From Acidobacteriaceae bacterium (GTDB lineage Bacteria > Acidobacteriota > Terriglobia > Terriglobales > Acidobacteriaceae), in contig JAOAPC010000016.1 of NCBI GenBank assembly GCA_025462735.1, forward strand, positions 151,822 through 215,821: a DNA stretch of 64,000 bases, read 5' to 3'. The notes under the pieces are model-generated. The model saw nothing but the letters and a program-made list of their open reading frames with translations. It was not told the DNA's origin and did no database searches. Position numbers and translations under genes: made by a program. Shown here in pieces: positions 6,925 to 34,695 of this stretch. Positions within the stretch are counted from its first letter, which is position 1, and the number at the start of each line of letters is the position of its first letter.

Positions 6925-6986
6925 TTTTACTCGGATAAATGGGTTGCGTAGCGCGAATCCGAGGATTTTGCAGGCCAGCCCCACTT

Positions 6987-7454
6987 TTATTCTCCGAACT
7001 TCCATCGCCAGAACTTCCACCACGGTGTTTTGTTGGACGTACCCGCCGGGAATATCGACACGACCTTAAGTAACTTAGTTCGATGAACTGGCTTATTGGT
7101 CTTCTCCGACGTTATAAATTCGTCGGCGCCAGCGAACACAGCACACGCGATATGCACGGCGTCGATTCCATGAATGCCTGTCTTGCATGCTTCTTCCAGC
7201 GCATATTCCAAAAGGGCTTCGCTTGTAGGTATCGACCTAGCGGCGGTCGTAAAAAATAAATTGTAAAATGCGACCTCTGCGGCTCGCTTGTGAAAAGTGG
7301 CCTTGGGTAGGACTTCCAGGCGGACGTAATCGCTAGTAACGTATTCCCGGCTTGAATCGGCCAGAAAGGGGAGGGCTAGGGCTGCAACATTGCGCTTTCC
7401 CTGTGCCGCGCAGATGAGGACGCCTGAATCGATGTACGTAAGCGTCGCTGGCAA
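6987..7454 (-). CDS. PIN-domain nuclease, VapC-like toxin
   Basis: A 155-residue PIN-fold protein, the family of Mg-dependent RNases that act as VapC toxins. The acidic active-site residues can be placed: Asp9 in YIDSGVLI, the Glu in YVRLEVLPK, the Asp in GIHGIDAVHIA, and a last polar cluster in FITSEKTNK. It is the last gene of a three-gene operon; its start lies 2 nt after the stop of the small upstream gene. Toxin function is inferred from family and context. The operon also contains a proteasome-like hydrolase, which is unusual for a VapBC pair. Confidence 0.82.
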   Translation of the reverse strand: MPATLTYIDSGVLICAAQGKRNVAALALPFLADSSREYVTSDYVRLEVLPKATFHKRAAEVAFYNLFFTTAARSIPTSEALLEYALEEACKTGIHGIDAVHIACAVFAGADEFITSEKTNKPVHRTKLLKVVSIFPAGTSNKTPWWKFWRWKFGE

Positions 7455-7456
7455 AA

Positions 7457-7741
7457 CTAACGTTTACCCCTCATCTCATCTATCTCTTTCGTCAACTGTT
7501 CTGCAGTCTTCAATCGAACACCAGATTCTTCTATCTGGCGACGCAGGGACATTAGATTCTCCTTTGTCTCTTCGGTAACAAGCAAAGGAGCGTAAACGAT
7601 CCCAGAAACTTCCGTCGTTGTTGGATACATAGGACCGTTCGAAAAATTTTCTGCTGCTATGGGCACGCTCTCAACCGCGTACATCTTGTCGGTTGAATTA
7701 AGTAATTCGGTGATTTTCCCTTCATTTATCGATAAAAACAT
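7457..7741 (-). CDS. small protein, probable antitoxin partner of the PIN protein
   Basis: A 94-residue protein with no family I can name. The first 65 residues look beta-rich. The C-terminal 30 residues are a charged helix (SLRRQIEESGVRLKTAEQL, ending EMRGKR), the kind of tail by which antitoxins often wrap a toxin. Its start overlaps the last 20 nt of the Ntn-hydrolase gene and its stop is 2 nt from the PIN start, so all three should be translated together. The antitoxin role is inference from position and size. Confidence 0.65.
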   Translation of the reverse strand: MFLSINEGKITELLNSTDKMYAVESVPIAAENFSNGPMYPTTTEVSGIVYAPLLVTEETKENLMSLRRQIEESGVRLKTAEQLTKEIDEMRGKR

Positions 7742-8615
7742 GGATTGGCTCCTTGTTCAATGGTTGGTCGTAATAGTGTTTCCTACTAATCCACTTAAAA
7801 TTCTCGTGCTTCGTAATTGCGGCTATCTCAATAGGACCGCCAACAATATTTGGTCCTGGCGAGAAACGGGAGAACATGATTGCCGAATGTACCAAAAACC
7901 GAGCTAGATCGATAACGTCTTGAATCGGCATTGGAGCGAAAACTAGATTTGCCTGCATTCGCGCAGTCAACACTGGTCCGAGCTGGCTTGCGAGAACCGC
8001 TGGATTCTGTGGCGGCTGAGTCACGGATGCTAGATGCTGAAAGAGTGATGGGCTGAAACCAACAATCATGCGCTGTAGCACCTCAGTTGCACCGCCCCAG
8101 CTCAGTCCCACTTCATGATCTTGTCTCAATTTTTTTGGTGGCTGAGGAACACCTTTCTTTATTTCCACTGACCATGATTCGCCCAAAGGGCCAGGTTTAG
8201 AATAACCGCCCAAAAGGAATCCCATATTTGTATTCAGCTTTGCGGCCTGCTCCAATTTGTCGCACTCTTCTCCTAGGAACTTCGCCAGCCCCTTTGCGAC
8301 TCCCTCCATTGTGTATTCATCCGCATTAAATCCCATTTCCTTCGGAGTGTCAGTCAGCTTCTTTCGAAGATCCTTTATGAGCGTGCCAATCGAAGCGTTT
8401 CCGATATTGCCGCTTCCGAAGGTAATGCAACCAATGGGTTGACCCTTGACGAGGTTGAAGATTTTGTTTGCGTTGTCATATACGTTTCCGACAACAGCAC
8501 CCTGCTGTCCCGGCGGGAGCACAACACCCGGCGGGACAGGCATCGTCAAAGTGGATGCGCTATCTGCCGCCAGCACCAGACCGTCATGAACGCCGATCAG
8601 GACCGCTATACTCAC
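7722..8615 (-). CDS. proteasome-like Ntn hydrolase
   Basis: A 297-residue protein whose N-terminus reads like a proteasome beta subunit: VHDGLVLAADSAST, then NANKIFNLV. Once the initiator Met is removed, residue 1 is Ser, a possible N-terminal nucleophile. Asp falls exactly at position 17, and the KI lysine equivalent to Lys33 is present after a ~17-residue Pro/Gly-rich insert. The start is a GTG at 8615 with GGAG upstream. The C-terminal ~100 residues are extra compared with HslV or Anbu. It leads a translationally coupled operon with the antitoxin-like and PIN genes. Fold assignment is fairly secure; activity and substrate are unknown. Confidence 0.72.
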   Translation of the reverse strand: MSIAVLIGVHDGLVLAADSASTLTMPVPPGVVLPPGQQGAVVGNVYDNANKIFNLVKGQPIGCITFGSGNIGNASIGTLIKDLRKKLTDTPKEMGFNADEYTMEGVAKGLAKFLGEECDKLEQAAKLNTNMGFLLGGYSKPGPLGESWSVEIKKGVPQPPKKLRQDHEVGLSWGGATEVLQRMIVGFSPSLFQHLASVTQPPQNPAVLASQLGPVLTARMQANLVFAPMPIQDVIDLARFLVHSAIMFSRFSPGPNIVGGPIEIAAITKHENFKWISRKHYYDQPLNKEPIHVFIDK

Positions 8616-8852
8616 TGATAATTATCTCCGCAGCGAACTTCCCTTCAAATTCTAGAGAAGACGCCAGCATCTGGGCGCAATGCGAAGCACTCTCGAATAT
8701 GGTACATGCACCGGTACGAAGAGGAAAGCAATCGGAAGGGATAGCAGCCAAAGTCACCTTATCGCCGATAAAAAGCCCTATAAAACCTGCAAAGTAAGGA
8801 AGTTCCAAAGTGAAACTGGGACAAGCCTTGATTGCTCATTCAGTGGTTTAGA

Positions 8853-9110
8853 TTATTTCGGCGCTACGCCGTCCGGATGTTTCAACTGGATTTCCGCGCA
8901 GTTCGGTCGATATTTTATAGTCACTACGCGGCACTGCGGCGGCTCCTTGGAACCATCGCAGTCCTGGAGCACCAAGGGCGCAGTCAGGCAATTTGCCCTG
9001 ACCACAGTGCGAAAACCTGAAGCCTTGAATGACGCTGCTGGCTGCCGTACCGCGCAACCCGTCGATACCAATACAGCCAGAATGGCTGTTGCACACTTGT
9101 AACTCATCAT
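8853..9110 (-). CDS. small lipoprotein
   Basis: An 85-residue secreted protein with a type II signal peptide: short charged start, hydrophobic ATAILAVLV, then the lipobox STGC with the lipidated cysteine near residue 19. The mature part has four more cysteines but no recognisable domain. An AGAGGA ribosome site precedes the ATG. It is downstream of the prophage tail genes on the same strand, where an outer-membrane spanin would be plausible, but it lacks the proline-rich character of Rz1, so that is only a guess. Confidence 0.6.
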   Translation of the reverse strand: MMSYKCATAILAVLVSTGCAVRQPAASFKASGFRTVVRANCLTAPLVLQDCDGSKEPPQCRVVTIKYRPNCAEIQLKHPDGVAPK

Positions 9111-9234
9111 GAATTCCTCTTCAGAGTTGCTCTCTTAGGTTGAACATCGGATAGGGAGTCCAGTTCTTCATGCTCTCGGCTGTGCAAACCACGCACGAAG
9201 GTCTCGGTGATGCGGCAGCGCGTCGCCGTCGAGT

Positions 9235-9543
9235 TTACTTCCACCAGCGGTCGTGCAGCGCGATCAATACGCTGATCGCCGTCGTCATCCCTGCATTCAC
9301 TAGACGGTCATAAACTCCGCGCCGCACGTCATTGCGCTCCAGCGTATTGACCCGATTTTCTATAACGCTCATACGGCCCGGCTGTCCGCTTCCAAGTAGG
9401 GTTTCCATTTTTACTTCCAGGCGCGCGAGTTTTTCCAGCACTTCGCACTGGAAGTCGTTGTCGGTGACGCGCACCACCAGCGGATGCTTGGTGGGCTCGT
9501 GTTTGCGAGCAGTCTCTTCGACGTCTTGGGTTCGATTGGACAT
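9235..9543 (-). CDS. small coiled-coil protein with C-terminal hydrophobic segment
   Basis: A 102-residue protein. The middle (about residues 35-75) is a heptad-like helix around EKLARLEVKMETLL and VIENRVNTLERND. The C-terminus is a short hydrophobic stretch (AGMTTAISVLIALHD). This coiled-coil plus terminal hydrophobic layout is seen in XhlA/holin-like phage proteins. It lies directly after the tail gene, where lysis genes often are. A lysis role is possible but not shown; no endolysin gene accompanies it. Confidence 0.55.
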   Translation of the reverse strand: MSNRTQDVEETARKHEPTKHPLVVRVTDNDFQCEVLEKLARLEVKMETLLGSGQPGRMSVIENRVNTLERNDVRRGVYDRLVNAGMTTAISVLIALHDRWWK

Positions 9544-9629
9544 AATTAAAACAGCGGGAAACAGCTATCGGCTCTCAGCTCTTCAGCTTTCAGCCAACAC
9601 AACGCGGCACGTACATCAAAGCGAAGCGC

Positions 9630-11999
9630 TCAATACGGAAAATCCACATGTAGCGCGGCAGATTGGCGTGAGTACTTTGGCGGCACTGAGCCATCAAACT
9701 GACGCAAGAAATAGTTCTGCACTTTTGACAGTCGCGGAAGCGTGAAGATTTGCGTCGTGAAGCGTCCGGCAAGGTTTTCGTCGTTGTAGGGGCCCCAGCC
9801 GCTGTCACTCCATCGGACCTCAAATCCGCCCGCGCTAAGCGCTGGAATGCCAGTGTCGATGCTGACGGTTGTCGAAGCCACTTGCGTGACCTGCGCCGCA
9901 GTGAGGTTAGGTAACACCGTAGTACCTACTTGCGCGTTCGTGATCGGAGTGATGGTAAGCGGGGTGGTTACCTTGGCAGCTTCCAGTTCAAACGACAGAG
10001 TCTTAGCCGCATCGTCGGCAAACTGAATTTTGTACAGACTGTGGTCCCCGGCGAGATCTGTGAATGCGATCTCCACCTCACGCACGATAGCTTGAAAACT
10101 TGCCGCGCATGAGGGAACGTTCACGTTGAGAGCATCACCAGGGAAAATATCTTGCGCAGCGCCGGGAAGAAAATCGCTCCAAGCTTCGTACTTGCCCGTC
10201 CAGCCTGCGGTCGCGCCATCCGACAAAAGGGCCAGCGCTGCATTTTCACAATCGACGCTGGTACGAGGCGGTGGCGACTTCACATGCCGCACCAGGCCGC
10301 GCACGCCATTATCGATTCCGCGCGGCTGGGCGGTGATGCTGGTTGGGTTCGTGACCCGCGCCATGGATCTTCCGGCGGTCAATAACAACGAGTCGCTTCC
10401 ATATTGACCACGAAAATGCACTTCAATCTGTTCATTGAGAGCGGGGACATACTGAGTAAAGAAATCGAGAGTTGTGCCGGAGACAACGTTGCACTCGCAT
10501 CCTGAAGAGAGCGGGCCGACAAGCCGCGTGGTATAAGGCTGTCCCGGAAGAGCGGTGCGCACTTCGACGTCGACCGCCTGAATAAGCCGCGTGAAGGCTA
10601 TTGCGCAATACAGGCTGCGAGAGTTCACCAACGCGTAAGTGCAAAATGACGGGGCGCCGGAGGTGACGCCGTCATACAGCACAAGGGCGGGCGCAACCAG
10701 AGTGGCGGGATTAGTTGGATCAACGTCGTGCACTTCAAGCACCAGGCGGACATTTGCGCTTACCAGTGCTCCACCGACGCCGTTGCCCGCCGGATTCGCC
10801 GCGCAATGAAAAATCTGCTGCTGACGGTAAATTTCCTGGGAGTAGATTCGCGTGCTAAGGACGTAATGATGACCGGTAACCGTGGCCAGTGCGGTTCCAA
10901 CGGGGGTCCCGTTAATTAGAGCCTGTATCTGCGACACAGATCCTGCGGGCGTGATTTGAAATCCAGCCAGGCAATTCGCGGCCGAAATAGTGCCCAGGTA
11001 AAGACCGCCGAGAATCCCGGATGAAAGTGCCGAGGTGAAGACTACATCGCCATGCTCCACAACCCAGGAGCCACCAAGCTCTATTTTCTCCCCGAAGGTC
11101 ACTGTGGTTGCGCCGTCAGCGCCGGTCCCGCCGGCAATCTGCAGTTTCCCGCCGCTGACGACGATTGCGGCACTCGGACTGGCGACATTCCAGCGGGTCG
11201 GGTCGAGCGTGGCGGCCGTGTACTCCTCATCGAAGATAGTCCTGCTGCGCTTGGTGAACGGAGGCTGCGAAAGATAAAAGCGCGTCGTCAGGCCGTTACC
11301 GACGAAATAATCACGGACGTAAGCCTTCGGCTCGAGATCGCCAATCACGGTCACGTCGTTAGCGATGGCGTTCCCTGGATGAAGAGTGAGACCTTCCGGA
11401 GAAAAGCTGGGATCCGACTCGTTAAGCGTGTACGAGGCGGAGCCAATCGGGGCGAATATCAGCGTTCCATTGACAACCCGGTAGCTGGCGCGGGCCGCGA
11501 CGGAAATATCTGCAGCGTGCTGGGACCATGACTCCTGCGGGTCGGGCACATAATAAGGAAGCGTATCCAGATTCTGCGCAGCGCCAGTGTCAAGGGCTCC
11601 GGGGATCGCATCCTGGGTCACCTGCCGGAGCGCGTCACCCGCGCTCCGGGCCACGAAAGGGCTTCGGGTGGAGAGACGCTTTTCATCGAGCAACATTTCA
11701 TCGCTTTGCGCGACAAAGTTGTAGCGGTACATCGCACCGCGCTCACCTCAACCCAGATACTCGTATTCCGGCTCGGTCTTTATATATCCCGTGAAAACGT
11801 CTTGGCCATTGGTGCGTCCCAGCGTGACGCGCGCGCCGCGATTCGGCACAATGAAATTCGGGCCTACAGAAATCAAACTGAACTGTAATAGCGAAGCCTC
11901 ATTCAGCTTGCGCGTGACCCGCGGAGTGCGAGCAGCGTCGATGTCGGCGGTGTAATCCCGCGGGCCAGCGCCATCGAGATTGTCAATTTGCAGTTTCAT
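9630..11999 (-). pseudogene. phage tail hub/tip protein, interrupted by an in-frame TGA
   Basis: Two open frames on the minus strand lie in the same reading frame: 83 codons (11999-11748) and 700 codons (11732-9630). A single TGA at 11748-11750 and five sense codons separate them. Read through, they give one protein of about 789 residues. Its N-terminal strand-rich part resembles phage baseplate/tail hub proteins (GPNFIVPNRGARVTLGR, FTGYIKTEPEYEYLG). It continues into a long domain with a concanavalin-like region and, near the end, a fibronectin-like segment (TTVSIDTGIPALSAGGFEVRW). The natural stop is also TGA. A Trp-to-TGA change is the simplest reading; the downstream part has its own ATG and could still be made. 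Confidence 0.72.
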
Positions 12000-12078
12000 A
12001 TCAGTTAAGAGAATCGCTCCCCAGAGCTGGTTGCGCCAAACACACGCGATGTTTCTATTTGCGGAACAATGACCGGCG

Positions 12079-13092
12079 TCAGTACAGGGCGGCTGTGGCA
12101 GCTGGAAAGTAACTGCGATAGCACACAGCTATCTGGCCGTCGTTCTCATCGGTATGCGGCAGCGCAATAAATGCCGCGTGCAGGGCCACAGCGGCAATTG
12201 GTTTAGCAATCTCGATCGCCTGTTCGCGCTGCCATGGCGTCGGAACGCTGCTTGTAGTTGGGTGAACCGTTGTCGCCGGACTCAAACGCGGATAATGAAA
12301 GCATATTCTTCCACCCGACTCATCGCCCGCAACAAACAACGCGGACCACTCCTGAAAGAATGCGCCTCCCTCGCGGTCCACGAACGCTACAACCGTTTGC
12401 AAGCCCGCACCCGCCGGGGGCGCACCGCCCAGGAGAGGTTGCGCCAGTATTAAAGAAGTCGCGGTGACCTGCGCAACCCTACCGAGGTTAAAAGTCACAC
12501 GACGAATATAATCCGCGTCTTGATTCACGTCGGTGGGATTGTTAACGTATGCGGCCGAAATTCCAGTGCCGACATAGCCCGTCTGTTGTTGGTAATCCGC
12601 GTCGACGGCGATAATGTCGCCTACGGAAAATGAATTTACTGATCCGACGCCCACGATTATTTCGGCTGCGCTGGAACCCGGCAGCACAGCAATCGGCGTC
12701 AGAGGGTTTCCGCCGGAAGGCTGTGCTTCCGCATTAGGATCCGTAGCGAGGACATTCATGTGCTCGGAGCCGCCCGCTAGCGCCATCTGCAACTTTCCCC
12801 ATTCGCGAAAGTCGAAATCAATTCGCGCGTCAAGCGTGCCGCGAAATTGCGCGGCAGCAGCGCCTCGGACGCCTGCGCGTAACGGTTCATTCGGCGTAAG
12901 GCTGACGCGCTGGAAATTGTCGATCCAGCCCAGGTTGATCCAGGGAGCGGGTGGGGAGTCGAGCGGAAACGCTCCATACTTTCCGGGATCGAAAATTGCC
13001 GGGACCCCGGAGACGCGATTGACCGGCGCAAAGTAAGCGCGCACACGTAGGCCCACCGGCACCATGGCGCCGCGAACTGCGAAGCTGCTCAT
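12079..13092 (-). CDS. phage major tail tube-like protein
   Basis: A 337-residue structural protein of the prophage. The N-terminus VPVGLRVRAYFAPVNR and the following strand-rich sequence (NFQRVSLTPNEPLRAG, then GTLDARIDFDFREWGKLQ) resemble tail tube proteins of siphovirus-like elements. Position agrees: after the connector/terminator genes and before the tail hub. No tape-measure gene or tail-assembly chaperone lies between it and the hub; the gap is only 79 nt. The assignment rests mostly on gene order. Confidence 0.6.
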   Translation of the reverse strand: MSSFAVRGAMVPVGLRVRAYFAPVNRVSGVPAIFDPGKYGAFPLDSPPAPWINLGWIDNFQRVSLTPNEPLRAGVRGAAAAQFRGTLDARIDFDFREWGKLQMALAGGSEHMNVLATDPNAEAQPSGGNPLTPIAVLPGSSAAEIIVGVGSVNSFSVGDIIAVDADYQQQTGYVGTGISAAYVNNPTDVNQDADYIRRVTFNLGRVAQVTATSLILAQPLLGGAPPAGAGLQTVVAFVDREGGAFFQEWSALFVAGDESGGRICFHYPRLSPATTVHPTTSSVPTPWQREQAIEIAKPIAAVALHAAFIALPHTDENDGQIAVCYRSYFPAATAALY

Positions 13093-13171
13093 AATGAAGT
13101 CACCCGATTAGTATTCGTATTAAGCACTCAGCCCGACGCACGCTTCCGCCTAAAATGACGGCCTTCGCCCT

Positions 13172-13199
13172 GCTGAATGCTGAGTGCTAAGTGCTGGGG
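13172..13199. repeat. heptamer tandem repeat (GCTGANT type)
   Basis: Four units with an exact 7-nt period, GCTGAAT GCTGAGT GCTAAGT GCTGGGG, directly after the stop of the 176-residue tail-terminator-like gene. The same degenerate heptamer occurs at many other intergenic sites in the window. Confidence 0.75.
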
Positions 13200-13200
13200 G

Positions 13201-13731
13201 TTAGAAACTCACTTCAGAAAAGAAGAAAACTTTCAGGTTCGACGTTCGTTCCAGCCGAATTCCAGCCGTGCCGCGCGGCAGAGCTTCGGTTCGCGGAGCT
13301 TCGCTGCCCACAACTTTTCCAAGTTGAGGCGTGCTCCACACAATGCTGGTACCTAGCCCGGCGGCAGGCGTTTGCGTATAGTCGCGCTTGGGCGTGGTTG
13401 CAGGCTGACAGATTCTGATGAGCTCGGTATCGAGGGCGGCCAGTGTGCGTCCGCGATCGACTCCCGATTCCGCAGTGCCAAAGGTGTGATAAGAAATCAG
13501 GCACTCCAGCGAAAAGATTGCCCGGTCGCCGGTCTGCTGCGGCACAGGTTGCGCCGCTCCCCACTCGATGTAAAACGCGTCGGGCAGTGGCTTAATCGGA
13601 ATCACAGCTTCATTTTCAGCGACGACAACTGCCGGCCGGGTGACTCCATTCAAAGTAATCATGCGTGATGGATTTAGCGCTGCCAGCCGGTCACGCAGCG
13701 TGATGTAAAAAGTGTCTTTGGTGAATTGCAT
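13201..13731 (-). CDS. phage tail terminator/completion-like protein
   Basis: A 176-residue protein starting MQFTKDTFYITLRDRLAALN. Proteins of this size and place, between head-tail connectors and the tail tube, usually cap or finish the tail. The sequence has the mixed alpha/beta pattern with a strand-rich centre (RAIFSLECLISYHTFG) expected of that group. I cannot confirm the family by motif, so the call depends on synteny. Heptamer repeats flank it on both sides, which is not normal for a compact phage genome. Confidence 0.5.
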   Translation of the reverse strand: MQFTKDTFYITLRDRLAALNPSRMITLNGVTRPAVVVAENEAVIPIKPLPDAFYIEWGAAQPVPQQTGDRAIFSLECLISYHTFGTAESGVDRGRTLAALDTELIRICQPATTPKRDYTQTPAAGLGTSIVWSTPQLGKVVGSEAPRTEALPRGTAGIRLERTSNLKVFFFSEVSF

Positions 13732-13736
13732 GAGCT

Positions 13737-13871
13737 AGCTTTCAGCCGTCAGCTATCAGCCATCAGCTAACGGCACAAACCTTTACGCGGTAATCGGACG
13801 CAACAAGATTTCTACAGAATCAAAAACAGACGTAATTTCGTAGAAAGCTGAGAGCTGATAGCTGACGGCTG
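13737..13871. repeat. heptamer repeat pair in a prophage spacer
   Basis: The 143-nt spacer holds two arrays: AGCTTTC AGCCGTC AGCTATC AGCCATC AGCTAAC at 13737-13771, and AGCTGA-type units at 13844-13871 in the opposite sense. Together they could fold into a long imperfect hairpin. No gene is seen here. Confidence 0.75.
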
Positions 13872-13874
13872 CTC

Positions 13875-14276
13875 TTACTCCACTCCCACCAGCCGGTACA
13901 AATAAGCCGTTCCCGCGAAGTATTCCGTGTTCGCACTCTCGATGTGGAAGAGATCGCTCTGATACTGAATTCCCAGAGCCAGATCGAACAATGCTTCAGC
14001 GGTATCTGCTCCTTCGTCATCAACCGCATTCGCCACGGCCGAAGCGGAGATCAGAAATTCCAGGCGCACTCGCGGTCCGGTATTGGGCGCCGGAAGGGTG
14101 CGCACCACGACTGGCGAAATGGTCACCGTCTGCACGCCGGGATCGGTTAGCCCCAACTGCGTGCTGTCACTTCCTGTTTGAGTTGGCATCGGAAGTACGA
14201 GCCCGACTTCGTCTCCACCGAGCGCGCGCAGCAAAGCATCGGCGGCCCGCATAACTGCAGTTCCTGCGATCGCCAT
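13875..14276 (-). CDS. phage head-tail joining protein (HK97 gp10-like position)
   Basis: A 133-residue protein with a helical N-terminus (TAVMRAADALLRALGG) and a beta-rich body (RVRLEFLISASAVANAV). Its start lies 4 nt after the stop of the 208-residue connector gene, so the two are co-translated. Order and size fit a head-closure or neck protein. No diagnostic motif is visible. Confidence 0.5.
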   Translation of the reverse strand: MAIAGTAVMRAADALLRALGGDEVGLVLPMPTQTGSDSTQLGLTDPGVQTVTISPVVVRTLPAPNTGPRVRLEFLISASAVANAVDDEGADTAEALFDLALGIQYQSDLFHIESANTEYFAGTAYLYRLVGVE

Positions 14277-14279
14277 GGA

Positions 14280-14906
14280 TCATCTCGTTTTCTGCGCCAC
14301 AAAGGGCGCGAGCATTGAACGCACGGTAGCATCGAGCAAATCCGGCGCGAAGTAATCCATGCGGAAACGGTCCATGCGGCCAGTCTTCACATTCACGGCC
14401 GGAGTCGCCTGGGCATTGCGGACCACCTGCGCGCAGGCGTATTTAACCGCGTCAGGAATCGTGGCGTATCCCGCCGTGTAGATCATGTCCACCTCGCTGA
14501 ACCACAGGCCGACGAGGTTCAACGGCAGCGTGAGTTCGCCGGTAGCTGGATCGAAGTCGACCGACGCCGGGTCGATGTTGCTCCAGGTTCCTGGCATTCC
14601 AAACATGAGCGCCACATCGAGTCGTAGGTCATCGAACGGCCATTTTCCCCGGCGTGGAACCGTATATCGCCCACGGCCGGAGATAATAGGCGAAGTGGAG
14701 GGCCCTAACGGGACAAGTGGAAGATATGTGAGGTGAATAGTATTGCGATCGGGCATCATGCGGATGCGTTCTTCATATTGCGCAATCGCCAGCGTCGCGC
14801 GCCGGCAATGGGCGTCAATAAGCGACGACGCAGCCCCCACCAGCGACGGCTCAGTCGTCGTGTCCAGTCCGTAGAGTTGGTATTCGGTTGGAGAGAGATA
14901 GTTCAC
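14280..14906 (-). CDS. phage head-tail connector protein (gp6-like)
   Basis: A 208-residue protein beginning MNYLSPTEYQLYGLD. It has the helical pattern of head-tail adaptor proteins: a short N-terminal helix pair (SSLIDAHCRRATLAIAQYEE), a beta insert, then a helix starting PDAVKYACAQVVRNAQ. It is the first gene after the major capsid gene, as expected for the adaptor. It is co-translated with the next small gene. Confidence 0.6.
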   Translation of the reverse strand: MNYLSPTEYQLYGLDTTTEPSLVGAASSLIDAHCRRATLAIAQYEERIRMMPDRNTIHLTYLPLVPLGPSTSPIISGRGRYTVPRRGKWPFDDLRLDVALMFGMPGTWSNIDPASVDFDPATGELTLPLNLVGLWFSEVDMIYTAGYATIPDAVKYACAQVVRNAQATPAVNVKTGRMDRFRMDYFAPDLLDATVRSMLAPFVAQKTR

Positions 14907-15020
14907 GAAATCGGCTCCTTGCGTGTAGCTGTTTGCTGTTAATTTGATAAACCTTCGTCAGCCGTCAGCTGTCGGTCATCAGCTTGTAAGCTGTGGTCAA
15001 TGTGTGCGAATCGAAAAAAA

Positions 15021-15109
15021 TGTCATTCCGAATCGCTTTTAGCGATGAAGAACCTGCTTTGCGAAGGCGATAAGCAGATCCTTCAGGAATAAATTCCTTC
15101 GGAATGACA
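15021..15109. repeat. TGTCATTCCGA-type palindromic element
   Basis: An 89-bp element with terminal inverted repeats TGTCATTCCGAA/TTCGGAATGACA. It lies in the 254-nt spacer between the connector and capsid genes; the spacer has no gene. Shorter or longer copies are at 16224-16312 and 16832-16859. Confidence 0.75.
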
Positions 15110-15160
15110 TCCCGCGTGAACGGGTGCGGCCAATGGTCGAACCGAAAGCGACGGTAGTCC

Positions 15161-16132
15161 TTACCGATCGACCTTCACTTCGTAATGCGCGTAGGAAGCA
15201 CCCTTCACCACCACGCCCCCGAACTTCACCACCACGTTTTGCGCAGCCAGAGTACTTGGCAAGCCGAGCTGGAAAACGCGAGGATTCGGATCGGTGAGCC
15301 AGTGGTACTCGATCATGTCCTCACTAACGATGTAAGCCGGCAGCACCGCAGTGCCGCTGCCGGGAGTTCCGGTGTAACCGAGCGCCCACTCGGGGATCAG
15401 TGGCAAGTCGCCGGCCTGAGTGCTGAGCGCCTTCACGCGGAAGCCGCCGGTGATTTCAACCGTGTTGAGAACGACGTTGAATGCCGTCTTCATTTCGCGG
15501 TCGATCAGATCGAGCAGCACCGGATTCGCATAGATGGCAGTTGGCCTCACTGCGTAGCTGGAGTTCGAGACCATCTGCGCCACCGTGGACTTCAGCCCGT
15601 CGACGATGCTCGCCGAGGTCCCAATGGTTGTGGTATTGCCACCAGCTTCGATCTGGCCTATCGCGCCGAAATATTGCAGCGTGGTCGGCGTAGATAGCGA
15701 AGTATCGGTACCATTCCAGAGCGAGACGTCATGCGTGCGCATGATGCCGTCGATGGCATCCGCGAGATCTTTTGCCTGCAGATACGCGAACTGGCTCTGC
15801 TGACTGCCGACCTCGAGGTCGAAAAGGTTGTAGTTGATCTGTGAGACCAGCGCCTTCAATGGCACGCTGCGCTCCGCCCGGTTTGGGGCCTGCACTGTCG
15901 GGGCGATGTTGCGCGGATCGACAAATGCCTGTGCTGCAGTTGGCTGAGGAATTGCCAGTTCCTCGAAGAACCGCGATGGGTGCCCGGTTGCAGGCACCTG
16001 CTTAATACGCTGTCCGAAAGCGCCGCGCCGACGTACGATGTCGGTAATTTCTGTGAGATAGCGGTTAACTTCAATCGCACCCGGCCCAAGGAAATCGGCA
16101 GCTGCGTGCAGGTCAATAAATTGTGCGTTCAT
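15161..16132 (-). CDS. phage major capsid protein (HK97 fold)
   Basis: A 323-residue capsid protein. It shows the head-protein pattern: an N-terminal helical arm (IEVNRYLTEITDIVRRRG), a spine helix region (LAYLQ-like FAYLQAKDLADAIDGIMR), and the A-domain with RPTAIYANPVLLDLIDREM. A C-terminal strand block is VVVKFGGVVVKGASYAHYEVK. It is preceded by scaffold and protease genes and followed by the connectors, the canonical order. No long delta domain is present, in keeping with a separate scaffold gene. Confidence 0.8.
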   Translation of the reverse strand: MNAQFIDLHAAADFLGPGAIEVNRYLTEITDIVRRRGAFGQRIKQVPATGHPSRFFEELAIPQPTAAQAFVDPRNIAPTVQAPNRAERSVPLKALVSQINYNLFDLEVGSQQSQFAYLQAKDLADAIDGIMRTHDVSLWNGTDTSLSTPTTLQYFGAIGQIEAGGNTTTIGTSASIVDGLKSTVAQMVSNSSYAVRPTAIYANPVLLDLIDREMKTAFNVVLNTVEITGGFRVKALSTQAGDLPLIPEWALGYTGTPGSGTAVLPAYIVSEDMIEYHWLTDPNPRVFQLGLPSTLAAQNVVVKFGGVVVKGASYAHYEVKVDR

Positions 16133-16223
16133 GTTTTCTCCTGAAGAAAGAATGTGTGCTTCGATCAGATTTTCTGTGCCAGAACAACGTCAGCCGCAAG
16201 CCACCAGCAAACCATTTGACATC

Positions 16224-16312
16224 TGTCATTCCGAGGACCTTCAGGTCCGAGGAACCTGCTTTGTTGTTTGAGAGCAGCAGATTCCTCACCGCTAAAGCGG
16301 TTCGGAATGACA
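16224..16312. repeat. TGTCATTCCGA-type palindromic element
   Basis: An 89-bp copy with termini TGTCATTCCGA/TCGGAATGACA and an internal hairpin (CCGCTAAAGCGG). It fills most of the spacer between capsid and scaffold genes. Confidence 0.75.
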
Positions 16313-16346
16313 GCGTCTGAGAGTTTCTTGATAGCTCATAGCTGTC

Positions 16347-16769
16347 CTACTCGATCATTCCGGCGCGTGCCATTTCCGCTTTCACCGCAATGCGCTGTTC
16401 GACACTGAGGGTTTGCAGAGTTTTGTCGAGAGCGCCGGCTTCGAGCTTGTCTCCGAGTTCGGCATTATTTTTCGAGAGCAGCGCGGAGACAAATGGCGAC
16501 AGAGTTTTGCGAGTTAGCCGCGCGGCCTGTGCCTTGAGGTCCGAATTTACCTTCTCGAGTTCAGCTACGCGGTGCTCAAGTTCGCGCGAGCCTCCCGCGT
16601 TCACTTCCACTCCGCGTTCTTCGACCGCGGCCACAATGCGATCGACTTTTGCGTTCAGCGTTTCCTGTTGTGCGTCTAGTTTTCCCAGAACGCGGTCCAA
16701 AGTTTCAGCCGCGTTCGCCAGGCGATCGGCGGCAGCGGCCAGTTGATTAAGGGTTTCGTTGTGTTCCAT
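16347..16769 (-). CDS. phage scaffold-like coiled-coil protein
   Basis: A 140-residue, highly charged, almost fully helical protein. A long coiled coil spans about residues 5-90 (LNQLAAAADRLANAAETLD, then ELEHRVAELEKVNSDLKAQ). A compact helical C-terminus (VEQRIAVKAEMARAG) could bind capsid protein. It lies between the prohead protease and the capsid gene, the place of the scaffolding protein. The role is inferred from shape and order. Confidence 0.62.
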   Translation of the reverse strand: MEHNETLNQLAAAADRLANAAETLDRVLGKLDAQQETLNAKVDRIVAAVEERGVEVNAGGSRELEHRVAELEKVNSDLKAQAARLTRKTLSPFVSALLSKNNAELGDKLEAGALDKTLQTLSVEQRIAVKAEMARAGMIE

Positions 16770-16831
16770 GAGTTCTCCTTTTTAGCGATCAGCTGTCAGC
16801 CTCAGCTGTCAGGGGAGACACCCTTTCCACT

Positions 16832-16859
16832 TGTCATTCCGAGGACCTTCGGAATGACA
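16832..16859. repeat. minimal TGTCATTCCGA palindrome with heptamer array alongside
   Basis: The two 11-12 nt ends of the larger element lie almost back to back here, like an internally deleted copy. A five-unit GCTGANN heptamer array follows at 16877-16908. All of this is in the spacer between scaffold and protease genes. Confidence 0.7.
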
Positions 16860-16908
16860 GATGAAATGGGGTGTGCTGATGGCTGATGGCTGACGGCTGA
16901 AAGCTGAT

Positions 16909-17445
16909 TTATTCCAACTCGATCCACGTATCCCGATATGCGGCTTTGTCGCGGCGAAGAATCGCGGCTCCGGTGAAGGTCACATGCGTCAGCGTCCAAA
17001 TTTTTGCGCGAACATCGGCGACGCTGGCATCTGCGATTTCGTACGACATCCCGAGAGGGTTCTGTGGCCGACTGCGTGCTGAGCCGCTCGCGTGAATAAT
17101 TCCCGACTCGATCTGCTGCACAATCTCCGGAAAATCTTTGGCGAAGAGATATCCGCTAAGTTCAAGCTCTTTGCCGGCGATTTCCGCGCGCGTGATGACG
17201 CCAACTTTGCATCGCGCATCGTGGCGATCGAAGCTTGGGGAGAAGTCGAGTGCCATGCCAAGCAACGACGGCAGCGCTCGTTCGGCGGCGGTACGAGTCA
17301 GAATCACGCGATGGCCGCGCGACCCGGCCGGCGGCTTATCTGAAGGAGTGTCCACCAGCGTCAACACACCGCGGAACGGTTCCCGGTTCGGATGCCCGTG
17401 AACTGCGGGCATGGCAATCGCCATAGATGCAAGTTGGAAATTCAT
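16909..17445 (-). CDS. phage prohead protease-like protein
   Basis: A 178-residue protein with the layout of the herpes-assemblin-like prohead proteases (U9/U35 type). A beta-rich N-terminal half includes FRGVLTLVDTPSDKPPAG and HRVILTRTAAERALPSLLG. A His sits in SFDRHDARCKVGV, a strand block is LELSGYLFAKDFPEIVQQ, and a Ser-rich block is IIHASGSARSR. Such enzymes mature the capsid shell. ATG 17445 is used because upstream codons to 17673 cross repeat DNA. Catalytic residues are proposed, not proven. Confidence 0.62.
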   Translation of the reverse strand: MNFQLASMAIAMPAVHGHPNREPFRGVLTLVDTPSDKPPAGSRGHRVILTRTAAERALPSLLGMALDFSPSFDRHDARCKVGVITRAEIAGKELELSGYLFAKDFPEIVQQIESGIIHASGSARSRPQNPLGMSYEIADASVADVRAKIWTLTHVTFTGAAILRRDKAAYRDTWIELE

Positions 17446-17487
17446 AGGTAGGTATCGCTCCTGGCCTTTCTGGCTTTCTTGTAACTG

Positions 17488-17703
17488 TGTCATCCTGAGC
17501 GGAACAGAATCATTCGCGCGCGAATGATTCTGTGGGGTCGAAGGACCCCGCGTTCTTTGTATTGGCGGAAGTTGCGACGGGCGTTCAACCTGTGACCTCC
17601 TAAGAATGCCCCGCCGGCTGCAGACCGACACCAAGCATTCCAGAGGTCCTTCGACTCCGGGACTGGTCTGCATCGCAGACCAGTCCCTTCGCTCAGGATG
17701 ACA
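17488..17703. repeat. TGTCATCCTGAG-type long palindromic element
   Basis: A 216-bp element with ends TGTCATCCTGAGCG and its complement. It contains a perfect 28-bp palindrome at 17505-17532 and a perfect 11-bp-arm hairpin at 17661-17685. It fills the 304-nt spacer between portal and protease genes, with a heptamer array (17719-17745) beside it. Confidence 0.78.
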
Positions 17704-17749
17704 GGGATGTTTGGGGCTGATGGCTGATGGCTGAAGGGTGAGAGCTTAT

Positions 17750-19000
17750 CTACAACGGCACCAGCCCGCGCATTCGCCGGACTTCGTTCACCGTAAGCAC
17801 GCCGGATTGCAGCAGGATTTGCTGTATCTGCGCCTCTTCCATGGCGTCTCCGGGACCGTCCACATCGGTGAAGACAAACTCAAGATCGTCCCAGCCGAGC
17901 TTTTTGCAGATTGCGTCGCGCGTGAGATATTCGGCAAACAACCGCGCGGTCGGCACGATTGCCTGGCGAAAAGCCTGGTCATTCATCTCTGCTGCGGTCG
18001 AGCGGTTCACATCGCGCTCGAGACCAAGCGATTGCGGCGGCAAATCAAAGGCATCGGCAATAATGCGCATCAAGAATTCCTGCCACTGCAATCGCAGGTC
18101 GGCGTCTGTGCCTCCGCCGAAACGTAGCACTTCAGGTTTGTTTTCGACTGATAGTATCGGGACCCGACCTGTTCCCTCGATCTCATCCTGCCACCACCGA
18201 ATGAGCCGCTCGTGCTGCTCGGGCGTCGTGTTCTGCAACCACAGTGCATATTCGACCACCGAGTTTGACGCCAGCCTTCCGGCATAACGGTGCGCGCCAA
18301 GAAATGAGTTGATCGACTCGAACGCAACTTCCAAACGCCCGAGTCCAAAAGGCGTAAACGTGCGCGGGTTGAGGCGCATGTAGATCAGCTCGTCGTCGCT
18401 TAAAAGAATGTTGGCATTCGGGCCAGCTTTCGACGTGACCTGTTCGTAGCGGATCGAACTCGGCAATCCGTCCCAGTCCGCGCGCATGTTAATCGTGGAT
18501 CCGTCGACCGGCCACAAAGCCAGTGGAGCATTGGCATCATCTGTGGCTTCGACTTCGATTGCACCAAAGCCGCCGACAATGACGTCTTCGAGCACCTGCT
18601 CTGCTAGGGAGCGAAACGAATCATCAGGATTGGGCGAAGCTAAGTTGCGCGTAAGAATGAGAACACGCGTTTCAGCATCCGGTGATTGAGGCGTGCCAGG
18701 CTTTGACTGGACCCGCCAACGCATTCCGGCGATGTGGTCTTTTATTGTGTTGATCGCCCGCCGCGCCACTGGTATTTCCGAAAAGCGCCGCAGGTTCATC
18801 GGCGTGGGCCTGGGCATGGTCTGCGCCCGCGGCCCGTAAGTGTTGAGTATCGATGGGAGCGGCACCGTTCGGCGCTTGCCTTGCAGCATCCCGGTGGAGG
18901 CGCCTCCGGCGAAAATGCTTCCGTTCTGCGTCAGTCGGTTGACGAAAGACACTCCCGCAATCCGGCGCATTGCGCCGCGTAGCGTATTTGTGATGTTCAT
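17750..19000 (-). CDS. phage portal protein
   Basis: A 416-residue portal, the dodecameric DNA gate of the head. Family features include the N-terminal RRFSEIPVARRAINTIKDHIAG block, the wing/stem strand SSIRYEQVTSK with LSDDELIYMRLNPR, and the long stem helices. The C-terminal crown segment is QSLGLERDVNRSTAAEMNDQ, typical of HK97/SPP1-like portals. The length is normal. It follows the HipA-like/DUF3037 pair rather than TerL directly, which is an insertion into the usual order. Confidence 0.85.
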   Translation of the reverse strand: MNITNTLRGAMRRIAGVSFVNRLTQNGSIFAGGASTGMLQGKRRTVPLPSILNTYGPRAQTMPRPTPMNLRRFSEIPVARRAINTIKDHIAGMRWRVQSKPGTPQSPDAETRVLILTRNLASPNPDDSFRSLAEQVLEDVIVGGFGAIEVEATDDANAPLALWPVDGSTINMRADWDGLPSSIRYEQVTSKAGPNANILLSDDELIYMRLNPRTFTPFGLGRLEVAFESINSFLGAHRYAGRLASNSVVEYALWLQNTTPEQHERLIRWWQDEIEGTGRVPILSVENKPEVLRFGGGTDADLRLQWQEFLMRIIADAFDLPPQSLGLERDVNRSTAAEMNDQAFRQAIVPTARLFAEYLTRDAICKKLGWDDLEFVFTDVDGPGDAMEEAQIQQILLQSGVLTVNEVRRMRGLVPL

Positions 19001-19072
19001 GGGGATTTAAGACCTTCAGCAGCTAGGTATTAGAAAATCTGCTATCTGTAACTTGTGTCGATCTTCGTAGAG

Positions 19073-19888
19073 TTAGGGCCTTACTGCGACCCTGATTCCG
19101 TCCGCGATCTGCGGCATTGTTGCTGCAGGCGCCACGATGATTCCGTTTTCCTGCATCATGTCCAGCGCGAAATTCACTTCGTCTAGGCCGCGATCCACAT
19201 CGTCATCCACCACGGCAGTTAGCCAAGCCTTCACGCCTTTCTTTGTCTGCATGCTGGCCGCGATCTGCGGAAAGCGTGCTGCCAAAATCATCCCCTGGTC
19301 GACCCTTTGCGCAAGCGAAACCGCATGAAGAAACTTGAACCCGTCATCCGCCGCATAGCCGAAGTCAAGTTTCAGAGGATCACCCGGCCTGGTGTATTCG
19401 GACACCGCAATGTTTGTCTGCATTAATGCCAGTACGCCTGCCTTTTGCAGTTCGTCTCGCATCACGCTAAGTATGCGCTGTCGCCCGCTGATCTCTCGCT
19501 TCTCCGTTCCGGCCGGAGTTTCCAAATAAATCGTGTTGAGCCGCTCCATCTCCAGCGCCGGAGATTCAGTAAGGCAGACCTGCAATTGTTCAAATCGAAT
19601 CACATTCGACCAGGAATCTGCCAGTCTTTTCAGCAAGTCCGCACGCCGCTGCGGATCTTGCAAATCCTGCCGAATCTCACGCTCGATGGCCTGCACTTCT
19701 TCAACGTCGGCCAGCGGATCGAAGCAGTGCAACCGCCTCCAGTTCCGGATAAAACGTACATCTGCAAATTCACCCGAGCCGCCTGCAGATGGCGCAATCG
19801 CCACCACGCCGAGATTGATGCTCTCGCCTTTGGTAGCGTCTCCGGCGTATCGCAGCAGGAAGAACTCAAGTTGTTGTAAGACAGCCAT
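19073..19888 (-). CDS. DUF3037 family protein, partner of HipA-like kinase
   Basis: A 271-residue protein. The start FFLLRYAGDATKGESINLGVVAI and the following VRFIRNWRRLHCFDP match my memory of the DUF3037 family, which has no known biochemical role. DUF3037 genes are often next to HipA-like kinases; here the kinase gene ends 3 nt before this start, so they form an operon. It lies inside the prophage head module, between TerL and portal, although it is not a virion gene type. A conflict or toxin-antitoxin-like role is inference. Confidence 0.72.
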   Translation of the reverse strand: MAVLQQLEFFLLRYAGDATKGESINLGVVAIAPSAGGSGEFADVRFIRNWRRLHCFDPLADVEEVQAIEREIRQDLQDPQRRADLLKRLADSWSNVIRFEQLQVCLTESPALEMERLNTIYLETPAGTEKREISGRQRILSVMRDELQKAGVLALMQTNIAVSEYTRPGDPLKLDFGYAADDGFKFLHAVSLAQRVDQGMILAARFPQIAASMQTKKGVKAWLTAVVDDDVDRGLDEVNFALDMMQENGIIVAPAATMPQIADGIRVAVRP

Positions 19889-19891
19889 CAG

Positions 19892-20695
19892 CTAGTTCTC
19901 TACCCACTCCGGAAACGGGCTCCTCGGCGACATCCGGAAGCAGGTGATTAATTCCCGTACCCGTGCCCTTCGGGTGAGCAGTTCCTGTCCTAAGCTTTCC
20001 AGCGCGGCCCAGTCGCTCGCGTACCACTCGGGTGGAATTTCTCCCGCCTGTGACCAAATTTCGCTTTCGCACATTGTCTCTATCCGCGACAGCCAAGGCT
20101 CGAATGACTCCCAGCTCTTCACCCGGGCATATGCTTCGTTACGCGCGAACACCCCGCGCAACGGATAATCCGGAAAAGTCCATTCGCCCGCGTTGAAGCA
20201 GAAACCTTGATCGATAAAGGTCGCAGTGTATTTGCGTTCACGGCCTTTGCGCCAGAATGCCGCCTGACGTCCATTGGCGTTACCAGTCCATTTGTCGAGC
20301 GCCAACATGCCGGCGAATGCATCGAGATTTCGCACGCGATCGAACAGCTCAACCGGTAGCCAATCGTAAACCCGGCCTTCCACCGGATTTACCACGTATC
20401 GAGACCCGAACTGCAACCCTGGGGCGCACGCGATCACATTTCCCGCAAGCTGAATATTCAACTCGGGCGAATGCTTAATCAGCCAATCATTCACTTCGAC
20501 AACTTCTGTCGTCGGAACCGGCAAGCCGACCCGCTCCGCCAGCCGGGTTGCCAGAAGTTCATTGGCCAGAACCCGCAAATGCTGCGGGTTATTACGAAAC
20601 TTCACTACATAAAAATGACCGTCGGAGCAGCGCATCAAGTGGCTTTGCGCGCCGCCCCGCATCCTGCGAACGTGTTGGACCGCATCCACTGGCAA
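19892..20695 (-). CDS. HipA-like kinase (HipA_2 type)
   Basis: A 267-residue protein related to the kinase core of HipA but without the usual N-terminal subdomain. Visible kinase parts are a glycine-containing loop RRMRGGAQSHLM, an ATP-lysine in YVVKF, a catalytic-loop-like LDKWTGNANGRQ, and a DFG-like metal motif FIDQGFCFN. HipA enzymes phosphorylate aminoacyl-tRNA synthetases and arrest growth; the target here is unknown. It is coupled to a DUF3037 gene and inserted between TerL and portal. A TGTCATCCTGAG-type repeat end lies just upstream. Confidence 0.75.
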   Translation of the reverse strand: MPVDAVQHVRRMRGGAQSHLMRCSDGHFYVVKFRNNPQHLRVLANELLATRLAERVGLPVPTTEVVEVNDWLIKHSPELNIQLAGNVIACAPGLQFGSRYVVNPVEGRVYDWLPVELFDRVRNLDAFAGMLALDKWTGNANGRQAAFWRKGRERKYTATFIDQGFCFNAGEWTFPDYPLRGVFARNEAYARVKSWESFEPWLSRIETMCESEIWSQAGEIPPEWYASDWAALESLGQELLTRRARVRELITCFRMSPRSPFPEWVEN

Positions 20696-20713
20696 TGTTC
20701 GCTGTCAATCTCG

Positions 20714-20771
20714 TCCTTCGACTGCATGCGCGGACTCGCAAGCGAGTCCACGTACTTCGCTCAGGATGACA
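20714..20771. repeat. partial TGTCATCCTGAG-type element
   Basis: One end (TTCGCTCAGGATGACA) and an internal GGACTCGC/GCGAGTCC hairpin of the element family seen at 17488-17703. It lies in the spacer upstream of the HipA-like gene, after the TerL stop. Confidence 0.65.
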
Positions 20772-20860
20772 GGCAAGAGATGCTAGCTCACAGCGCGGCA
20801 TGAGCGATGTGACGAATGAACATTCGCAGCTGTGGATTTCTACTCCGATGCGTGACGCCG

Positions 20861-22372
20861 CTATTTGGATCCTGCCACAGCCTGCCGCCCCGCCAGCGCA
20901 ATCGCCATGGCCATCACGCAGTCATCATGGCTTCCCGAACTGTTTCCGGACCCGCCATCAGCCCGGCGGATAAACGTCCTGAATTCTGCAAGCAGTCGTT
21001 CGCTCTGAAACAGCTGCGGCTTAACCGACAAAATTGCGGCCAGGTTTTCGATCATGGCTGGCTTTGTTACCGCCGACGTCAGCCAGCCGTCCTGGCCACC
21101 ATGGCGAAATACGTTCTGATATCCCGCCGCCCTCAGGTTCGCCAGCACGCCGTGTCCGTGATTATTTCGTTCAACCACGAGCAGCGCATGGTTATACATT
21201 CCGCCCAAGTCAATCAACTTCATCGCCAGCTCGCGCGGAGAATAATGTCCGTGCAACTCCGCGCACTGCATCGCTGTTTGCCGGTCGATGACCTCCGCGC
21301 ACGCGTAATCGCCTTCGGTGCCGCCTCCTGCAGGATCGACTCCGATAATGTATTGCCGCTCGCCTCGAGGCTGAAACCAGATGGTCAGCCGCGCATTGTC
21401 GCGCACAGTGGTTGGCCGAGACTGCGCGTCCAGTGCCCGATCGATTGCCTCCAACTCAAACACACATTCGCCCGAAGCGAGGAAACAGGAAACCGGGTCT
21501 TCGGCATACTCCTGCGTAGCCAAGCCTCGCATTTGCGCACGATTTGTCCGACGCCAGGCGATCTGCGCATCCGTCAGCCCAGCCCTTCGGACCAGGTCTT
21601 CTTCTTCCGGAGTTAATCGCAGAACATTGCTCAATCCTTTTTTGTCACGATATTCATCGTCATACCACCACGGGAAAAAGTGCCTTGTGTATCCCGTTTC
21701 ATTCGCGTGCTGCCACTCTTCATAGAAGAGTCCGACCGCCCCGTTCGGGGTGGATTCCAAAACGATGTCTCCATCGGCCGGTACGGCTGCGCGCAACGAA
21801 GCCAGCGCTTCCGCCGGATCACGCAGCCAGCGGGCGACCTCCGAGCAATGCAAATTGTGGATAGTCAGCCCGCGGCCGGCATTGACGTCCCCAGCAGTGG
21901 CTACTCGGTACTCGCTGTCGAGCCGCGGAAACACCATCTGGCGGACGTTGGCGCGTGAGCGGATGAGCGCGCCGCGTTTCATCGCTTCGGGCAGGTTCTC
22001 CCAGAAGCGATGGACGATCTTGAAAATTTCCTCTGCCGATTCCTGATCGTGGGCTACCAGCACCGTCATCGTGCCCGGCCGCGTAATGGTCTGGATAAAG
22101 AATCGCGCCGCGATATAGGTCGTGATTCCCATCTGCCGCGCCTTCAGCACGATATTGCGATGAGTGCAGGTCTGCGAAAATTCCCGCTGTACGCGATTCG
22201 GGCTCAGCCGCACCAGCCCGCGCTTTTTACTGCGCACTCGCAGGAAAATCGACATCAGAGAGTCGCGCACGCTTTCGCATCCCGCGAAACCTGCAGCTCT
22301 CAGCCGCTCCACCGGGATCTTCGCTTCCAGCAAAATCCCCAACCGCTGCAACAGAGCAACGTCGTCGGTCAA
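20861..22372 (-). CDS. terL: phage terminase large subunit
   Basis: A 503-residue DNA-packaging motor. The ATPase part has the adenine-side block PNRVQREFSQ, a Walker A-like KARQMGITT near residue 78, and the coupling motif ESTPNGAVG. The C-terminal RNase H-like nuclease has the three acidic motifs: GVDPAGGGTEGDYA, LLVVERNNHG and SHDDCVMAMAIAL. No residue loss is seen, so packaging could still work. It follows the three large secreted proteins and precedes the HipA-like/DUF3037 insert. Confidence 0.93.
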   Translation of the reverse strand: MTDDVALLQRLGILLEAKIPVERLRAAGFAGCESVRDSLMSIFLRVRSKKRGLVRLSPNRVQREFSQTCTHRNIVLKARQMGITTYIAARFFIQTITRPGTMTVLVAHDQESAEEIFKIVHRFWENLPEAMKRGALIRSRANVRQMVFPRLDSEYRVATAGDVNAGRGLTIHNLHCSEVARWLRDPAEALASLRAAVPADGDIVLESTPNGAVGLFYEEWQHANETGYTRHFFPWWYDDEYRDKKGLSNVLRLTPEEEDLVRRAGLTDAQIAWRRTNRAQMRGLATQEYAEDPVSCFLASGECVFELEAIDRALDAQSRPTTVRDNARLTIWFQPRGERQYIIGVDPAGGGTEGDYACAEVIDRQTAMQCAELHGHYSPRELAMKLIDLGGMYNHALLVVERNNHGHGVLANLRAAGYQNVFRHGGQDGWLTSAVTKPAMIENLAAILSVKPQLFQSERLLAEFRTFIRRADGGSGNSSGSHDDCVMAMAIALAGRQAVAGSK

Positions 22373-34315: not shown

Positions 34316-34343
34316 AAATCGCCTCCTAGCGATAATCGAGACA

Positions 34344-34650: not shown

Positions 34651-34695
34651 GTGCGCCTTCTTTTCTCCCTCGAACAGTTATATCGGTTTGCTGAT

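Follow-up and report, generated by a model that had tools for sequence, protein, structure and literature searches.

This locus raises the question of what a predicted proteasome-like protease is doing in one unit with a toxin gene. It lies in a stretch of 64,000 nucleotides (nt) from an Acidobacteriaceae bacterium (GCA_025462735.1, contig JAOAPC010000016.1, forward strand 151,822-215,821), in the following called the window. Along the minus strand, from 8615 to 6987, the order is a predicted proteasome-like N-terminal nucleophile (Ntn) hydrolase of 297 amino acids (aa) with a GTG start (7722..8615), a middle gene of 94 aa (7457..7741) whose product has a variable front part and a tail of the toxin-binding type, and a PIN-domain nuclease of 155 aa, a VapC-type toxin, with a TTG start (6987..7454). 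The coordinates of the open reading frames (ORFs) agree with the tight coupling described in an earlier note on this DNA, the protease and middle genes overlapping by 20 nt (7722-7741) and the middle and PIN genes being 2 nt apart (7455-7456), and the feature pointed out there is real. What is new is that the gene neighbourhood links an orphan proteasome branch with exchangeable toxins. As to what this link does, we give about an even chance to the reading that the protease governs the PIN toxin by acting on the small middle protein, a hybrid with the tail of an ordinary antitoxin.

The protease and the PIN toxin

The structure prediction that the earlier note had named as a check gave the 297-residue protein a proteasome-type Ntn fold, that of the proteasome beta-subunit, with an insert of about 17 residues ahead of the lysine and extra helices at residues 191-220. 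The note had also read a Ser as residue 1, Asp17 and a lysine behind such an insert from the letters, and all of these are found in the protein. The predicted nucleophile is Ser2, which becomes Ser1 once Met is removed (codon 8610-8612), and it is followed by Asp18 (Asp17 without Met; codon 8562-8564) and Lys51 (residue 50 without Met; codon 8463-8465), all on the minus strand. Residue 50 is 17 residues beyond Lys33 of the proteasome numbering, and Gly67 was paired by eye with Gly47 of the proteasome family. In a tree of 104 relatives, Ser/Thr1, Asp, Lys and Gly are kept in 100, 99, 102 and 102 rows, and in the 35 rows that are linked to a toxin they are kept in 34, 33, 35 and 35. Their retention in the toxin-linked rows favours an enzyme over a holder.

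This bears on an alternative that is unlikely but has to be taken seriously, in which the protease or its ring binds and stabilises the hybrid antitoxin, as in toxin-antitoxin-chaperone (TAC) systems, until a disturbance frees the toxin, catalysis being secondary or serving to clear free partner. The antitoxin of TAC depends on a third protein and is the closest mechanistic precedent (PMC5105189; here and below, papers are cited from excerpts), and the front of the middle protein is predicted at low confidence, as a disordered chain would be, but a mere holder would need none of the residues Ser/Thr, Asp and Lys that are so regularly kept. We regard the window protease as a predicted proteasome-type Ntn hydrolase with an N-terminal Ser, which as a member of that family would hydrolyse peptides and assemble into rings.

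No Pfam family was found for the protease at E values up to 10, the curated cut-off of PF00227 not being reached, and no family in NCBIfam or PADLOC; its sole match in the domain libraries is phrog_5990 of PHROGs, function unknown (E 2.7e-17). A family missing from the VIA-align list is not thereby excluded. As a single query against PDB sequences the protease gave nothing meaningful; a profile query did match. In the bacterium's own genome the PF00227 search found only another gene (G000 C11:427129-427638). This is a separate, ordinary member of the proteasome family, perhaps HslV, which makes the window protein an additional homologue.

The earlier note's call of a PIN nuclease for the third gene is borne out by PF01850 (E 2.6e-6, above the cut-off), and Asp9, Glu47 and Asp98 are invariant in 10 of 10 aligned sequences. 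PIN is a toxin of a known family, as a type II toxin-antitoxin system requires. No PIN relatives were confirmed in viral contigs.

Exchangeable toxins behind the protease

The search with the window protease gave 1541 proteins at E<=1e-3 and that with a phage relative 3117, two sets that probably overlap. The best 120 of each set were listed. Relatives are also present in archaea, Bacillota, Actinomycetota, Pseudomonadota, Chloroflexota and others, by record titles, and in viral contigs. Of 297 genomes from the own phylum (Acidobacteriota) 9 have a match, as do 4 of 150 genomes from the same family and, with a broader profile, 14 of 396, partial matches included. The protease is thus sporadic, as expected of a mobile gene. 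A distant relative with 23% identity (L243; OQ594955.1 40815-41837), annotated 'proteasome subunit beta' in the record of phage LESphi2, has its strand to itself, the adjacent tail-fibre genes being on the other one, which gives it the look of a cargo gene.

The three-gene order was sought in other genomes, and a PIN gene stands behind the protease in 15 further loci (tblastn; L004-L014, L016, L017, L019, L083). The window's middle protein as a tblastn query was found in only the closer 7 of these; when the frames are read directly, all 15 have a middle gene that ends in such a tail. The automatic rule for partners gave a wrong frame or none in L009, L010, L012, L014, L019, L026 and L029, and there the frames were also read directly. 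In more distant relatives, the third gene by Pfam is PemK/MazF in L018 (1e-19), L030 (1.4e-25), L124, L190 and L086 (cut by the contig end), ParE/RelE in L043 (6.8e-8), L022 (5.7e-12), L029 and L121, and Fic/Doc in L077 (1.8e-13) and L119 (8.4e-13); other PIN types are found in L023, L033 and L093. L050 and L054 are RelE-like by eye only, L050 having no Pfam toxin family, and both were counted as RelE on the tree. The 104 rows hold 69 without a recognised toxin, 20 with PIN, 7 with MazF, 6 with RelE/ParE (two by eye) and 2 with Fic, so that in 15 of the 35 toxin-linked rows the place of PIN is taken by MazF, ParE/RelE or Fic. All 35 have a small ORF separating the protease gene from the toxin gene.

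Starting from 201 loci with a protease match, dereplication at 90% identity left 162, and 154 of these have at least 600 nt downstream, 113 with a short protease (<380 aa) and 41 with a long one. Same-strand ORFs of 75-260 aa around the short-group proteases number 173 downstream (97 loci) and 144 upstream (86 loci). The downstream ORFs gave 30 toxin matches in Pfam at 1e-3 (PIN 18, PemK 6, ParE 3, ParE-like 1, Fic 2) and one further match to Unstab_antitox, whereas no toxin is seen among 25 of 26 Pfam families listed for the upstream ORFs. The difference has a Fisher p of 4e-9, uncorrected for relatedness; 16 of the 20 PIN rows form one acidobacterial clade. On the tree, the toxin state needs 16 changes, gains and losses together, the least possible being 4, and if only the starred branches are trusted, 4 are still required for PIN, 3 for MazF, 2 for RelE and 2 for Fic. 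The contrast between downstream and upstream and the repeated changes on the tree both support a non-random coupling to toxins.

The same results bear on the possibility, which we find quite unlikely, that ordinary toxin-antitoxin cassettes have hitch-hiked to a place behind a phage accessory gene that is unrelated to them and functionally independent. Toxin-antitoxin genes are mobile, as is generally known, and the 69 relatives without a recognised toxin would fit. Hitch-hiking would explain neither the absence of recognised toxins among the 144 upstream ORFs nor the repeated changes of toxin state, and the closely related acidobacterial loci have preserved short overlaps between their genes. 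Furthermore, in both cases tested (L093 and L190, see below) the small protein and the stand-alone antitoxin differ in their front halves.

The earlier note had named homologues not linked to PIN genes as evidence against its reading. The 69 rows without a recognised toxin and the 15 with another toxin are of this kind, so that about half of this counter-evidence is there; it makes PIN one plug-in among several and does not break the link to toxins. The note's interpretation is partly supported, namely as to the Ntn fold and the non-random toxin coupling.

A small protein with an antitoxin-type tail

The middle protein can be divided, from its model and from the comparison of L015 with L016, into a front part (residues 1-56; 7574..7741, minus strand) and an antitoxin-type tail with two predicted helices (residues 57-94; 7460..7573, minus strand). 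The tail has a pattern of about RRxIxxSGxxLxxxExLxxEIxExxG. The model of the 94-aa protein has a helix at 7-16 and helices at 57-72 and 80-92, with a mean pLDDT of only 66.5, and residues 26-48 are of low confidence (pLDDT under 50). The front part would be the partner region for the protease.

This gene had been called antitoxin-like, a description that has no family match over a cut-off behind it but is supported by homology of the tail. Against Pfam, NCBIfam, PADLOC and PHROGs the window protein gave only weak matches below threshold, one of them to Cas8a (PADLOC 2.0.0, E 0.023). For a DNA-binding or dimerising front domain, nothing over the Pfam cut-off was found in the window or in the toxin-linked middle genes scanned singly, only weak sub-threshold matches. 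The conserved part among the PIN-bearing acidobacterial units is the C-terminal tail, and a profile of the middle family found a protein (P0294, E 1.5e-6) labelled at its source as antitoxin of a toxin-antitoxin stability system. The front of P0294 resembles Phd/YefM (PF02604 at E 0.0048; 17.1 bits, where the cut-off is 29.8), and over 42 aa its tail shares 74% identity with the L017 tail, which in turn aligns with the window's. By way of L017, the middle protein thus appears to have the toxin-binding type of tail known from antitoxins of type II systems. P0294 gave only weak matches in plasmids (best E 0.4).

Two loci allow a comparison with stand-alone pairs. The last 34 residues of the L093 partner match 208 plasmid records, and 24 of the 25 rows listed are annotated as prevent-host-death antitoxin, 21 of those 24 also with VapC. 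The L093 VapC is 58% identical to the stand-alone VapC of L230, whose antitoxin aligns with the L093 partner over the tail only (63% of 30 aa). The MazF of L190 is 54% identical to the stand-alone one of L220, and only the last 25 aa of the L220 antitoxin align with the L190 partner (60%). The genomes of L230 (G139) and L220 (G120) are not among the nine own-phylum genomes with a protease match. The L190 tail has a match in 6 of 199 own-phylum genomes, with a MazF-like gene adjacent in 5 of the 6 (by eye); neither this tail nor that of MazF-linked L030 has a match in plasmids. At the other end of the protein, L015, the sister of PIN-bearing L016, has no PIN match and a partner without the tail, which aligns with the L016 partner over the front 60 residues (43%). 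Since the L093 and L190 tails match stand-alone antitoxins and the fronts of L015 and L016 align, it appears that toxin and tail move as a cassette while the protease's partner region replaces the antitoxin's front domain. As far as alignments can tell, this is an exchange of controller in toxin-antitoxin cassettes, the tail staying with its toxin and the front domain being swapped.

Some further observations concern the same proteins. To the eye only, 6 of 8 aligned partners resemble each other near an [ST]x[DEN]W stretch. In L191 the MazF gene is followed by a second small protein (711-968) like the partner's front part, which by eye suggests a duplication of the partner. A stand-alone PIN 45% identical to the window's (L204:1495-2144) is found behind an AF2212-like antitoxin (PF01954, 1.8e-9), in a genome (G005) that is not among the nine with a protease match. 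Another window-related PIN gene follows a 466-aa macro-domain protein (L205:102-1902; PF01661, 6.3e-27), whose end by eye resembles the tail of the window's middle protein, which would be another front domain on that tail. In L206 the likeness of the tail to that of the window's middle protein is seen by eye only.

How the toxin may be released

In the toxin-bearing versions, the partner ends in a tail of the toxin-binding type that in ordinary antitoxins stands behind a different front domain, as the sequences show for three tail families, and the toxin that goes with the tail comes next. At rest, the tail would sheathe the toxin and the front part would be engaged by the protease. On a trigger, perhaps another phage, the protease would cut the hybrid, so that the tail is lost and the toxin is freed to cut RNA, control running from protease to toxin. 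The mechanism as a whole is plausible, and the protease may, as the earlier note put it, destroy the antitoxin or act as the sensor of a defence unit.

Several points weigh against this reading. No sequence marks the middle protein as a substrate, and the protease could shield, hold or ligate it; nor was a motif common to all the small partners found. Tails of the PIN type, VapC and MazF were tied to ordinary antitoxins, but those of ParE/RelE and Fic were not, and BLASTP gave no alignment between the window's middle protein and the AF2212-type antitoxin beside the L204 PIN, their likeness being by eye only. On the tree, built by a quick method, 42 of 101 inner branches are weak, and the toxin labels are clustered, the PIN rows being mostly of one clade. 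Shuffled labels need a mean of 33.1 changes as compared to 16, so toxins are also inherited. Finally, there are the 69 rows with no recognised toxin, and of the long phage-type relatives none of 41 has one (phmmer with 18 typed proteins as queries). The same phmmer search matched 34 of 111 short-group loci, but its queries were drawn from that set and the Pfam counts are preferred.

The missing motif also speaks against a very unlikely alternative, that the enzyme cuts and rejoins its partner, or trims it once for maturation, without destroying it. In its favour, the proteasome homologue connectase acts as a specific ligase of proteins instead of as a protease (PMC8665760), and the partners here are short.

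The toxin-free rows and the 41 long relatives imply that the protease also does something for which no toxin is needed. Close to the protease stop (-75 to +60 nt), a small ORF begins on the same strand in 78 of 103 loci of the short group, whereas 236 of 556 other genes have one; for the long group the figures are 38 of 41 loci and 85 of 231 other genes. Because the small ORF is enriched at the protease stop in both groups, protease and small partner are likely to be the ancestral pair. The two genes are adjacent with or without a toxin and form the core of the unit; their products would pair physically. Returning to control by cleavage, it is possible, though somewhat short of an even chance, that the units form a class of tripartite conflict systems, in which a proteasome-family protease is the universal front end for cassettes of toxin and antitoxin tail (PIN, MazF, ParE/RelE, Fic, perhaps small membrane proteins) and its partner replaces the antitoxin front.

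Two loci without a known toxin share a third gene of 56-58 aa (L015:7127-7297, L112:7055-7231). Its products have one membrane helix by their look, no Pfam family and 40% identity over 52 aa, and the partners there have a different tail. Among 199 own-phylum genomes, relatives of this protein are found in two at E about 2e-8 and in four at E<=0.01; a cyanobacterial plasmid has one as well. It may be a further plug-in effector.

The prophage

The unit sits at the edge of a prophage, just downstream of the structural genes (9235..22372) and on the same, minus, strand. Three of the 8 proteins scanned there have PHROGs matches, to a head-tail adaptor (14280-14906), a portal (17750-19000) and a large terminase (20861-22372). 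A tail fibre (27594-32369) is one of four proteins recognised by PHROGs among ten scanned. None of the window's prophage proteins was found near the other fetched protease loci (tblastn, 1e-6), which gives no sign of a tie between the unit and this particular phage. In a few relatives, genes for phage lysis stand immediately upstream (a lysozyme, two holins and an amidase) or the protease is close to where a viral contig ends. The place of the unit on a prophage and the lysis genes upstream in these few relatives suggest that it may benefit the prophage, for example by excluding other phages.

The same position could be taken to mean addiction, where the unit has no role in defence and only stabilises the prophage, loss of the locus letting the remaining toxin hit the daughter cells. 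The place at the end of the structural genes and the relatives by lysis genes or viral contig ends would agree with this, but it leaves the many toxin-free versions unexplained, and we find it highly improbable. The G+C content over the unit is 52-53% (window 6001-10000), while the next 2-kb bins have 56% and 58%. This dip would fit a foreign origin, but the window has others like it at 34001-36000 and 40001-42000.

Comparison with known systems

In 2021, Fuchs, Alva and Lupas (PMC8665760) added 22 families to the proteasome-like proteins, some of them in phages, and among them PMI-1 to PMI-6 with multiple insertions; in the excerpted text, they report no genomic contexts pointing to a function. 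Going by their description, the window protease family probably belongs to the PMI group: proteasome beta-type fold, Thr/Ser1, Asp17, Lys33 and Gly47, and occurrence in bacteria, archaea and phages are shared, and the insert ahead of the lysine and the extra helices of the model may correspond to the PMI insertions between S3/S4 and near H3/H4. The window branch differs in its context of toxin and antitoxin tail. This link gives a large proteasome-like branch a testable role, with growth arrest and RNA cleavage as read-outs, and control of the toxin would, if true, be the first function for that orphan branch.

We know of no toxins among the operon partners of Anbu. The protease is only 15% identical to Anbu (5NYW, 5LOX). 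With VapBC (Phd-VapC) and MazEF-type pairs the units share the toxins and the C-terminal tails of the antitoxins, but differ in that the customary front of the antitoxin was not found and that a protease gene precedes the cassette. If the proposed mechanism is true, release of the toxin answers to a dedicated, phage-borne protease and not to housekeeping Lon or Clp.

PADLOC 2.0.0 has no model for the unit and leaves both the protease and the PIN protein unmatched. The word proteasome does not occur in the excerpts of a type II network study (PMC10440598) and of DefensePredictor (PMC13092281), and in that of PMC10152622 proteasome and toxin-antitoxin terms occur only in two references. In the open PMC literature, which excludes subscription papers and preprints, no paper was found in which homologues of the proteasome are connected to toxin-antitoxin genes. 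A review of toxin-antitoxin systems in M. tuberculosis (PMC3968373) brings up the Pup-proteasome, and with it the idea of a proteasome acting on toxin-antitoxin proteins, but this is the general cellular proteasome and has no linked genes, and the review, as excerpted, sees no evidence for a role in toxin-antitoxin activation.

The nearest mechanisms are TAC and the protease-gated nucleases of Tuck et al. (PMC12799240), neither of which, in the texts as excerpted, has a proteasome-type enzyme. TAC (PMC5105189) is also tripartite; there, the antitoxin has a short added sequence by which a third protein controls it, and which can be transferred between toxin-antitoxin systems. That third component is a SecB-like chaperone and not a predicted proteasome-fold hydrolase, and the addiction sequence is at the C-terminus of the antitoxin, while the added part here is at the N-terminus. 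The Hachiman, AVAST and canu pairs (PMC12799240) likewise couple a protease to a nuclease effector, but there a trypsin-like or caspase protease cuts a pro-nuclease of the metallo-beta-lactamase type with no antitoxin in between, where the window unit has a predicted Ntn fold and a PIN domain. If the protease does cut the hybrid, the gating of effectors by proteases in prokaryotic conflicts would extend to enzymes of the proteasome type.
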